Shown here one piece after another: positions 6,239 through 24,184 of a stretch of 64,000 nt of DNA. Origin of the DNA: an uncultured Draconibacterium sp. (GTDB taxonomy: Bacteria > Bacteroidota > Bacteroidia > Bacteroidales > Prolixibacteraceae); NCBI RefSeq assembly GCF_913060805.1, contig NZ_CAJXTC010000005.1, positions 62,001-126,000 of the forward strand, given 5' to 3'. A program made the position numbers and the translations under genes. Numbering within the stretch: position 1 is the first letter of the stretch; every line of letters begins with the position of its first letter. A model generated the notes under the pieces. That model was not told where the DNA came from, did not search any database, and saw only the letters and a program-made list of their open reading frames with translations.

Positions 6239-7435
6239 ATGAAAAAACGATTTAATTTGCTTGTGCTGGTGTTTATTTTTACCTGTGTTTCATCGTATGC
6301 ACAACAAGCCCTGTTCGGAGGACAACCGATTGTTTCACCTGAAATTAATGCCGATAACTCGGTTACTTTTCGCGTACTTGCTCCCAATGCCGAAAAAGTA
6401 TTGGTAACCGGCGATTTTCTTCCAACAGAAAAAGTGCAATCTCCGATGGGAGAAATGGAAGCTCCGGGAAAAGCGGAAATGACAAAAGATGAAAAAGGCG
6501 TGTGGTCATTTACTTCCGAGCCGTTAGAATCAGAATTGTACGATTATTCGTTTGTAATTGATGGTTTTACAACTACCGATCCAAGTAATCCATACGTAAT
6601 CCGAGATATAGCTTCAATCACCAATTATTTTATTGTTGGCGGCGGCAAAGCTGATTTGTACATGGTACAGGATGTTCCGCACGGAAGTGTAACTCGTCGC
6701 TGGTACGATTCGCCGGGATTGAATATGGATCGTTGCGCGGTAATTTATACACCTCCGGGTTACGAAAATTCAACCGAAAAATACCCTGTGCTTTATTTGC
6801 TTCATGGTGCCGGTGGCGATGAGGAAGCATGGTTTGCCCACGGAAAAGCAACCCGTATTTTGGATAACCTTATTGCAGAGGGAAAAGTAAAGCCAATGAT
6901 TGTGGTTATGCCAAACGGAAACGTAATTCAGGATGCTGCACCGGGCGAAGGTCGTGATAACTTTGTAACGCCTGCATTTATGATTCCGAATACCATGGAC
7001 GGAACTTTTGAAGCCAACTTTATGGATATTCTGAAATTTGTGGAAAGCAACTACCGCGTTAAAGCCGATAAAGCCGACCGTGCTATTGCCGGACTTTCAA
7101 TGGGTGGATTTCACTCGATGCATATTTCAAGGTATTACCCAAATACATTCGATTATGTAGGGCTGTTCTCGGCAGCATTGTTGCCACGCGAAGATGCCAC
7201 CGGAAAGGTGTACAGTAACATCGATGAAACCTTGAAACAACAAAAGAAAAACGGCTATAAATTGTATTGGACAGGTATTGGTAAAACCGATTTTCTGTAC
7301 GATGCAAATAAAGAATTCAGAGCAAAATTAGACAGTATTGGCATGGAGTATACCTACATGGAAACCGACGGTGGCCATATTTGGCGCAACTGGCGGATCT
7401 ACCTGTCGGAATATTTGCCATTGCTTTTTAAATAA
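6239..7435 (+). CDS. CBM48-CE1 two-domain esterase (array member 1)
   Basis: 398 residues from the ATG at 6239, chosen over an in-frame upstream TTG because it starts a clean Sec signal peptide ([14 protein letters not shown]...SYAQ). An N-terminal E-set/CBM48-like domain (about 27-125, [20 protein letters not shown]) is followed by a CE1/esterase-D alpha/beta hydrolase (about 140-398). The likely triad is Ser287 in GLSMGG, Asp351 in GKTDF and His380 in GGHIWRNWR; the oxyanion loop is [15 protein letters not shown]1 enzymes of this layout are feruloyl or acetyl-xylan esterases. The E-set domain carries an extra loop ([16 protein letters not shown]) shared with the genes at 11979 and 23006. 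It is predicted periplasmic and is the first gene of the array. Confidence 0.9.
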
Positions 7436-7505
7436 CGATTACTTCTCAATCCAGTTGCAACAGTCGGTTAATTAGCGGCTGTTGCAGTTGTATAAACTTA
7501 AACGA

Positions 7506-8369
7506 ATGAAGAACCTGATAAAACTGTTTCCGCTTGTATTGCTGATTTTGGTTGGCTCGCGTTTAGCGGCTCAAATGCCGGGAGCGGGGAGAGTGGAATA
7601 TCTTACTATGCCGTCCGAAATTCTTAATGAGGACCGTGAATACTCCATCTTTTTACCGGCCGGTTACGAACAAAATACCGATAAATCATATCCGATTTTG
7701 TATTTACTGCATGGTGGTGGTGGAAGTCATAAAGACTGGCCAACCCAGGGGAATCTTGCTGCTGTTGCCAACCAGTTGATCGCCTCAGATGAAGCAGTTG
7801 AAATGATCATTGTTTGCCCTGAAGCAGGGAAAACTTTCATGAATTATTTCAATAATCCGGATTGGCGTTACGAAGATTATTTTTTCGAGGAAATGATTCC
7901 GTACATCGAATCAAACTACCGTGTTATTGCCGATAAAAAACACCGTGCTATTGCAGGCCTTTCAATGGGTGGACAAGGTACAGTTGTTTACGCTTCGCAT
8001 CATCCCGAGTTATTTTGCGCTGCTTATGCCATGAGTGCTTATTTGTACGCCATGGATTTGCCGTTTATCAATCCGGATGATGAGACGATGCAAAAGCTGC
8101 AAAAACTGGTAGACAATAACAACTGTATCAACTATTTGGCCAATGCATCAGAGGAAAAGGTTAATGAAATGAAATCGCTGAAATGGTTTATCGATTGTGG
8201 CGACGATGATTTTACTTTTCCATTGAATATGGAATATGTTGCAGAGATGCAAAAACGCCAAATCCCTTACCAGTTGCGTGTTCGCGACGGCGGCCACACT
8301 TGGGAATACTGGCATTCGGCATTGTACATCGCACTGCCTTTTATCAGTAACTGTTACCGAGATAATTAA
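7506..8369 (+). CDS. Single-domain CE1/esterase-D family secreted esterase
   Basis: 287 residues from the ATG at 7506, which begins the signal peptide ([23 protein letters not shown]). It lacks the CBM48-like domain of its neighbours: the hydrolase starts almost directly after the signal with [20 protein letters not shown]. The oxyanion loop is [13 protein letters not shown]; the nucleophile is Ser153 in GLSMGGQG, the likely Asp lies in DCGDDDFTF and the His in DGGHTWEYW. Its C-terminus (NCYRDN) differs from the LFK ending of the two-domain paralogs. The family includes feruloyl esterases, acetyl esterases and S-formylglutathione hydrolases; the signal peptide argues for the carbohydrate or aromatic esterases. 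Confidence 0.88.
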
Positions 8370-22974: not shown

Positions 22975-23005
22975 ATCTAAATTGATAAATCTTAAAAATT
23001 GAAAT

Positions 23006-24184
23006 ATGAAAAAAACAGTTCTTACAATAATCACACTGATTTTTACAACAAGTCTTTTTGCTCAGTTCGGTGGACCTCCACGATTGGTGTCACCGGAGAT
23101 TGATGGCAATAATATTACCATCCGTATTCGTGCCCCAAAAGCTATAAAAGTGGAACTGAACGGTGCTTTTTTACCGGTTCAGGTGGTTGAAACACCAATG
23201 GGACGAATGCCGAGAACAATGCCGGTGGAAATGAAGGAAGGCGAAGACGGTGTTTGGGAATATACCGCCAAAGATGTAGTGCCCGATTTTTACACGTATA
23301 CCGTTTCTGTTGATGGCATTCAGATGCTTGATCCGAATAACCTGAAGGTAATTCGCAACGGGCGGAATATGAGCAATTACCTGATTGTGCCGGGCGAGAA
23401 AAGTAATGTATTTCTGGAAGCCAAAGAGCACAAAGGAACGCTGTCGAAAGTATGGTATCCTTCTGCTGCCTACGGTGCCGAATGCCGAATGTATGTGTAC
23501 ACCCCATACGGCTATGGTGAAACCAACAAAAAATACCCGGTATTGTATCTGCAACACGGTGGCGGCGGCGATGAGGATGCATGGTCTTCTTTGGGCAGAG
23601 CTTCACAAATTATGGATAATTTGATTGCCCAGGGCAAAGCAGAACCTATGATTGTGGTTATGCCAAATGCAACTCCTAACCAACTGGCTTCGCCGGATGT
23701 TTTGGATCCAATTGAAGGTTCAACTGACTTGTTCAGCATGGATATGGAATCGGATGAATTTCATTCCGGTGGCGTATATACCAAAAGCCTGGTTGAAGAT
23801 ATCATTCCTTATGTGGAATCGCATTATAGTGTAATTGCCAAAAAAGAAGGACGTGCACTTGTCGGTCTTTCAATGGGTGGAATTTACACGCTTTATACCA
23901 CTGCCCGAAATCCCGAATTATTCGATTATATTGGTGTTTTGAGTATGGGATTTACTCCCGGTCGCGATGCAAAAGCAGAATTAACGCCAATAAAAGAGGC
24001 CGGTTACAAATTGTACTGGGTGGGTTGTGGCGAAACCGACATGGCGTATGATAACGCTGAAAGGTTGCTAAATGAGCTGGATGAACTGAATATGGAATAC
24101 ACCTATTTCGACAAAGTTGGCGGTCACACCTGGGACACGTGGCGTGTTTGTTTAAAAGAAATGGCGCCCTTATTATTCAAATAA
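23006..24184 (+). CDS. CBM48-CE1 two-domain esterase (array member 10)
   Basis: 392 residues; signal peptide ending SLFAQ. The CBM48-like domain carries the extended loop ([16 protein letters not shown]) found in the members at 6239 and 11979. CE1 motifs: [13 protein letters not shown], Ser289 in GLSMGGIY, Asp in GETDMAYDN, His in [10 protein letters not shown], end APLLFK. It is sandwiched between the two type-B carboxylesterase genes with 31- and 23-base gaps, so the three are probably co-transcribed. Predicted periplasmic feruloyl/acetyl esterase. Confidence 0.9.

Follow-up and report, generated by a model that had tools for sequence, protein, structure and literature searches.

What use does a bacterium have for fourteen esterase genes gathered behind one SusC/SusD importer? 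The locus that raises this question lies in a stretch of 64,000 nucleotides from an uncultured Draconibacterium sp., here called the window (contig NZ_CAJXTC010000005.1, positions 62,001 to 126,000; G000:C5:62001-126000 in our own handles for genomes, contigs and loci; genome of 5.48 Mb). According to the gene calls, the fourteen esterase-type genes all lie on the + strand between 6239 and 25887, 3' of genes for an extracytoplasmic function (ECF) sigma factor, FecR, an STN-SusC transporter and SusD. Ten encode a CBM48/E-set domain joined to a carbohydrate esterase family 1 (CE1) domain, one a single-domain CE1 enzyme, one a polyhydroxybutyrate (PHB)-depolymerase-like protein and two type-B carboxylesterases. 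The answer that we favor, and hold to be reasonably probable, is a locus of the polysaccharide utilization locus (PUL) type that imports acylated plant-derived sugars and strips several kinds of acyl group from them in the periplasm. The ECF sigma/FecR/STN-SusC relay would sense the substrate, and SusC/SusD would import ester-decorated plant-derived oligosaccharides or glycosides. Soluble exported esterases, most likely periplasmic, would then take off acyl groups of several chemical types, among them hydroxycinnamoyl groups (feruloyl, for instance), acetyl groups and other aroyl or alkanoyl groups, at different sugar positions, and the freed sugars would pass to glycosidases encoded elsewhere, for example in a GH51/GH43 PUL at 48505 or in a xylan locus on contig 39 of the same genome.

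The CE1 genes were named E1 to E11, E2 being the single-domain one. In all ten two-domain genes the CE1 family PF00756 scored 73-100 bits against a cut-off of 22, with 99.8 bits for E1 (6239..7435) and 84 bits for E11 (23006..24184), an E-set-CE1 protein and the tenth two-domain member. CBM_48 exceeded its Pfam cut-off of 22.4 in seven of the ten (27.1 in E1), fell below it in E6 (13324..14493; 20.4) and E10 (19948..21072, from the first ATG; 21.9) and was unreported for E11. A profile built each time from the nine other N-terminal domains found every one of the ten at 67-165 bits (100 bits for E11), far above the best shuffle at 3.2, so that this domain is common to them all, E3 (9443..10636), E4 (10813..11952), E5 (11979..13190), E7 (16336..17544), E8 (17566..18744) and E9 (18765..19868) included. 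In the alignment the Ser of GLSMG and a C-terminal His were invariant, the motif GLSMGG being replaced by GLSMGS in E7 and GLSMGC in E8, and the aligned catalytic acid was D in nine members and E in E6. E6 also reads FGGSG in a stretch that starts with HG in the nine remaining two-domain members, and its contig-39 counterpart reads VGGSG; the E6 lineage thus shares an altered region near the probable oxyanion hole. The original prediction had described ten such genes with an E-set/CBM48 domain, a CE1 domain, both motifs and signal peptides, and profiles and alignment agree with it. Signal peptides were judged by eye, with no predictor: the N termini resemble them, being of the twin-Arg type in both carboxylesterases, and those of the CE1 enzymes had no obvious lipobox.

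The further esterases named at the outset are likewise as they had been described: E2 (7506..8369 from its first ATG, in an open reading frame from 7482; PF00756, 111 bits), the PHB-like gene (14588..16300) and the carboxylesterases CO1 (21295..22974) and CO2 (24208..25887, the last), with 294 and 286 bits for PF00135 against a cut-off of 27 and Tat-like N termini. The run had been described as a co-directional tandem array. All genes do share one strand, but the run is split between E2 and E3 by a gene that we call AH2 (8421..9425, +; PF04909, 121 bits), which encodes an exported Amidohydro_2 metal-dependent hydrolase or decarboxylase.

Do so many genes mean more of one activity or several activities? 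Gene dosage or drift, that is, recent tandem amplification without division of labor, is favored by the closer pairs E7/E8 (72% identity) and E4/E5 (64%) and by a copy number that varies between species. However, every other pair among the ten shares 32-48%. A tree of 131 sequences places every member with its same-genus counterpart in a clade of its own, and several lineages co-occur in distant loci, e.g. L084, L087 and L027. Between the window's genome and its sister species G672, dN/dS was 0.022-0.077 for fifteen orthologous genes; a sixteenth pair, the PHB-like genes, are relatives at 59% with a dN/dS of 0.15. Because of the 32-72% identity, the separate clades and the low orthologue dN/dS, recent tandem amplification was rejected, and we give dosage or drift very little credence. 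Some lineages extend to distant Bacteroidota, as shown by E1 relatives at 66-71% in Algoriphagus, Rhodonellum, Leeuwenhoekiella and Runella. E6 and E10 fall into a xylan-type supergroup with B. intestinalis 6MOT and 6NE9, D. mossii 7B5V and the contig-39 genes, and the other eight into the 6RZN supergroup, some inner nodes being weakly supported. Members that are divergent and yet separately conserved are what distinct functions predict, and their apparent age and divergence fit different ester specificities rather than dosage. A substrate with many chemically different ester groups, as originally proposed, would agree with the divergence and separate conservation seen here.

Conservation was followed through AH2, which marks the locus in 11 of 37 genomes of the genus; one of the 11 is the window's own, and the surroundings of AH2 were read in the other ten. 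Several species carry the array at one syntenic site, and others hold pared-down remnants. In G672 sigma/FecR/SusC/SusD are retained, and eleven two-domain CE1 genes are present together with E2, two genes of the PHB-like type and two for carboxylesterases. G670, which also retains the importer block, has four carboxylesterase genes besides six two-domain CE1 genes. The number of two-domain CE1 genes is nine in both G671 and G007, and in G007 a GH3 gene follows the array. Smaller sets were seen in G012 (truncated SusD, E2, AH2, E4, E5 split across two frames, E7 and a carboxylesterase), G668 (E1, AH2, E4, E5, a carboxylesterase and a partial E9-type gene; a second AH2 match, at 40%, lies elsewhere in that genome), G009 (AH2, E4, E5, CO2), G008 (E2, AH2, E9, CO2, GH3), G006 (AH2, E9, CO2, at a contig end) and G669 (AH2 and CO2 only). 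A downstream PF00144 gene is kept in G672, G671, G670, G669, G007 and G012, and on the upstream side the presence of the GH31 gene was confirmed for G671, G670 and G669. Since syntenic copies and partial remnants exist side by side in the genus, the array is a real inherited module, yet a labile one, smaller or decaying in some species. Genes of E1 or AH2 type repeatedly have as neighbors Sde182-type proteins, cellulose-binding and nucleoside-hydrolase-like (L112:10254-11750 in G672, L017:8292-9794, L015, L054); the Sde182-type gene that sits between E2 and AH2 in G672 is missing from the window.

In the loci examined outside the genus such numbers were not met. Among the best 80 of at least 590 confirmed stretches related to E1, all from named genomes and with loci of 3-21 kb, the count of CE1 genes per locus was one in 56, two in 12, three in 4 and four in 2, the counter returning zero in the remaining 6; an alternative counting rule changed some counts slightly and left the maximum at four. 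The large searches across genomes could count copies up to the 4 to 7 candidates that were scored in each. G155, of the same order, holds a xylan-type array with six CE1 genes, of which five are CBM48-CE1 genes and the sixth is single-domain (L106). Ten or eleven copies are the largest array met among the loci examined, and the count in the window exceeds what chance would lead one to expect.

The head of the locus consists of the ECF sigma gene just 5' of the window (L001:16990-17550; PF04542/PF08281), the FecR-type anti-sigma gene, which starts 5' of the window (1..843, +; PF04773, PF16344), the SusC-like TonB-dependent transporter gene with STN domain (937..4314, +; PF07715, PF00593, PF07660) and the gene for a SusD-like glycan-binding protein (4329..5939, +; PF07980, PF14322). 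The intergenic gaps, with the start sites chosen, measure 11-222 bp. Importer and esterases are presumably co-regulated. Several observations nevertheless weigh against an importer and esterases working as one periplasmic unit. Two terminator-like sites, at 10747 and 19880, and two wider gaps, of 176 and 222 bp, make a single transcript less than certain. The second site, in the E9/E10 gap (19880-19909), is a 13-pair stem followed by a T-rich tail and possibly an attenuator or terminator within the array; in a promoter and terminator scan the site counts equaled those of shuffled sequence. In G671 and G007 the arrays persist with the sigma/FecR/SusC/SusD block absent from the stretch read. The esterases therefore seem not to need an importer of their own, which suggests that they are useful by themselves. 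For its signal peptidase I (SPI) esterases, PMC8040265 leaves open whether they act in the periplasm or outside, although PMC7815789 reads such signals as likely periplasmic. Finally, SusC relatives within the order gave 48 non-self matches, of which 40 were fetched and seven stayed unread; CE1 genes stood beside three of the first 20 and none of the next 20 fetched. One further locus of the first 20 had a carboxylesterase only, and G223:C38 (= L107), a high-ranked match outside the fetched 40, has three CE1 genes. Several lower-ranked matches fit another SusC of the same genome (L001) better. With CE1 so seldom adjoining and the lower ranks matching another SusC, this transporter was not informative as a guide to the substrate.

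What, then, could be cut? The nearest precedents are the 'esterase genes-enriched' (EGE) PULs of gut Bacteroides, which have up to five esterases and target feruloylated arabinoxylan (PMC7815789). Published CE1 enzymes of this architecture free ferulate or acetyl from xylan: of the two Ig/E-set-CE1 proteins of the EGE PUL, 01033 and 01039, one is described as an esterase for ferulic acid and the other as an acetyl-xylan esterase (PMC7815789). When E3 and E7 were searched against solved structures, the best matches of both bore the name ferulic acid esterase (6rzn/8bbp), and all ten members share 34-50% identity with 6RZN and 31-37% with 7B5V. Given the EGE PUL parallel and these two matches, import followed by divided periplasmic de-esterification is the simplest explanation. 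It has two narrower versions. In the first, the locus would be an ordinary accessory locus for complex arabinoxylan, an EGE PUL with more copies whose ten enzymes would remove feruloyl, coumaroyl and acetyl groups from arabinoxylan oligosaccharides. The feruloyl esterase matches of E3 and E7 speak for it, as do the grouping of E6 and E10 with xylan enzymes from B. intestinalis, from D. mossii and from contig 39, the GH51/GH43 PUL about 20 kb downstream and the xylan-type esterase-rich locus on contig 39. Eight of the ten members, however, belong to the other supergroup, and the locus has no xylanase or arabinofuranosidase. We regard arabinoxylan as a serious possibility, but not as the probable one.

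The neighbors of related esterases bear on the same point. In the E1-type set, 130 operon-like neighbors were taken from the 80 named loci, and 128 were scanned after L048:3028-8586 and L084:15775-17142 were dropped; the xylan-type set comprised 65 proteins from 16 of 22 loci examined. In family lists that run to their first 25 entries, so that 'at most' allows for one unseen protein per list, the E1-type neighbors included 27 GH3, 11 COesterase and at most 2 GH43 proteins, whereas the xylan-type neighbors included 18 GH43, 5 COesterase and at most 1 GH3. The two contrasts between the sets gave Fisher p values of 6e-8 and 1e-4, with neighbors treated as independent although those within a locus are not; the two sets were also sampled differently, and the E1 set is essentially one lineage. 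This difference speaks against arabinoxylan as the common substrate. GH3 neighbors themselves do not exclude xylan, since the single GH3 of the published EGE PUL is a beta-xylosidase (PMC7815789).

The second narrower version turns this GH3 link around: the substrates would be acylated phenolic glycosides, hydrolysable tannins or similar sugar esters, with help from beta-glucosidases of neighboring or other loci, and AH2 would decarboxylate or hydrolyze a released aromatic product. A GH3 gene starts at most 150 bp 3' of a CE1 gene in 14 of the 80 named loci, and one follows the array in G007. The L058 copy is beta-glucosidase-like (833 bits to beta-glucosidases in the PDB vs 222 to xylosidases), and the remaining 13 comprise eleven at 50-74% identity to it and two, from L050 and L084, at only 26-33%. 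This hints, as a lead drawn from gene neighborhoods, that an ester containing a beta-glucoside, and not arabinoxylan, may be what the E1 lineage acts on. It is also a weak lead for the polyphenol of the original prediction and for phenolic esters in general. The lead is weakened by a control in which SusC relatives had a GH3-like gene nearby equally often (16 of 40 loci vs 23 of 56 E1-relative loci over 15 kb), so that GH3 shows no enrichment over that background. GH3 is moreover polyspecific, as the EGE beta-xylosidase illustrates, and the window locus lacks GH3.

The position of AH2 between esterases in the genus also favors phenolic substrates. Its metal-site residues (HxH, His, His, Asp) are conserved in nearly all of 20 homologues, it had no sequence match in the PDB, and its confident model (pLDDT 85) resembles, among named folds, ACMSD and a probable 2-pyrone-4,6-dicarboxylate hydrolase most closely, so that an aromatic-pathway decarboxylase is among its fold neighbors. 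It is conceivable on the basis of this model that AH2 acts on a released aromatic or lactone product. On the other hand, the fold matches are weak (TM ~0.55) and ambiguous between decarboxylase and hydrolase, and beyond the genus the closest three relatives of AH2 (57-66%) had no CE1 gene within the 20 kb read, which ruled out AH2 as an obligate esterase partner. On balance, phenolic glycosides and similar esters appear rather unlikely to be the substrate. We would be just as hesitant about a more general proposal: that there are two CBM48-CE1 classes, a GH43-linked one for xylan and a GH3-linked one for acylated beta-glucosides or phenolic sugar esters, and that the genus assembled the second into a 'phenolic-ester utilisation locus' of its own, with up to eleven CBM48-CE1 specificities and an amidohydrolase dedicated to the aromatic product.

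A last alternative leaves sugars aside and supposes that an ester-linked polymer is degraded, be it a polyester or a cutin- or polyhydroxyalkanoate-like material. One PHB-depolymerase-like gene (14588..16300) and its two relatives in G672 would be the trace of such a function. This alpha/beta hydrolase, which carries a C-terminal extension of unknown fold, stayed below the cut-offs of both PHB depolymerase models, however (PF10503, 19.2 vs 23; TIGR01840, 58.7 vs 107.85), and a structure model made from four sequences came out poorly (pLDDT 39) and was set aside. Ten carbohydrate-esterase-type enzymes with SusC/SusD fit a sugar better. The polyester suggested in the original prediction found no support, and we rank polymer degradation as the least probable reading.

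Downstream of the array, a TAXI/NMT1-like solute-binding protein gene (25997..27055, +; PF16868), possibly co-transcribed, is kept in G672, and counterparts adjoin related loci in G672 and L019. The PF00144 serine hydrolase gene (27248..28540, +), a conserved downstream flank by same-genus synteny, may encode a further esterase; against the AcmB-type methyl acetate hydrolase model NF052559 it reached 157 bits, below the cut-off of 550. A PQQ-like beta-propeller protein gene (28762-30117) has a counterpart in G006. For the genes that begin with SusC and end with this protein (937-30117), the Pfam scan found no glycoside hydrolase (GH) family. Downstream, the first GHs are met at 48505 and 50471 (GH51 and GH43), and after them come another SusC and a hybrid two-component system (HTCS) regulator; upstream, on the opposite strand, lies a divergent GH5/GH31 PUL with SusC/SusD. 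A cation-efflux-transporter-like protein (36229-37170) has, by eye, a strikingly His-rich N terminus.

The interest of the locus is that one operon-like run offers a natural panel of ten diverged and separately conserved CBM48-CE1 enzymes, with sister-species orthologues and natural partial deletions. Such a panel lets one ask what supposed feruloyl esterases cut, and whether the GH3-linked subtype serves substrates other than arabinoxylan.

How does the locus compare with what is known? An EGE PUL is defined by more than two esterase genes in a PUL (PMC7815789). The window has fourteen such genes and a SusC/SusD pair; it shares with the EGE PULs several Ig/E-set-CE1 esterases, which there mostly carry SPI signals. 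The B. intestinalis EGE PUL comprises five putative esterases, four GHs (three GH43 and one GH3) and an HTCS, whereas the window is GH-free from SusD to the last esterase, is headed by sigma/FecR with no HTCS, and has eight of its ten CE1 members in a different supergroup from the EGE enzymes. The CBM48-CE1 architecture itself is that of the feruloyl esterases wtsFae1B and wtsFae1A (6RZN/6RZO) and of DmCE1B (7B5V), the latter being, unlike the window members, a fused enzyme of a xylan-targeting PUL (PMC8040265). Within the same genome, the contig-39 locus (L002:1131-19154) resembles the window in its CBM48-CE1 genes, five in a row that follow a type-B carboxylesterase (PF00135), but includes GH127-, GH43-, CE6-, GH51- and GH3-like genes (by eye), and its CE1 enzymes belong to the xylan-type supergroup; related arrays occur in G012 (L019) and in the G155 locus described above. 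The rumen Bacteroidales loci L084 and L087 resemble the window in combining a carboxylesterase, a SusC (~40%) and E1-, E2-, E5- and E9-type esterases, a co-occurrence that points to plant material, but they have four CE1 genes only and a GH3 within the locus. In the open-access library that was searched, we found nothing closer than the EGE PUL for esterase arrays or for esterase-rich, GH3-esterase or phenolic-glycoside loci. The original prediction had set the array against known loci with only a few esterases, and its count does exceed the known one, with fourteen here against five in B. intestinalis. An undescribed system is too strong a term, since esterase-rich PULs with CBM48-CE1-type enzymes have been published (PMC7815789 and PMC8040265) and contig 39 holds a second one. 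All in all, the locus looks like an extreme, oversized and glycosidase-free variant of the esterase-rich kind of PUL.

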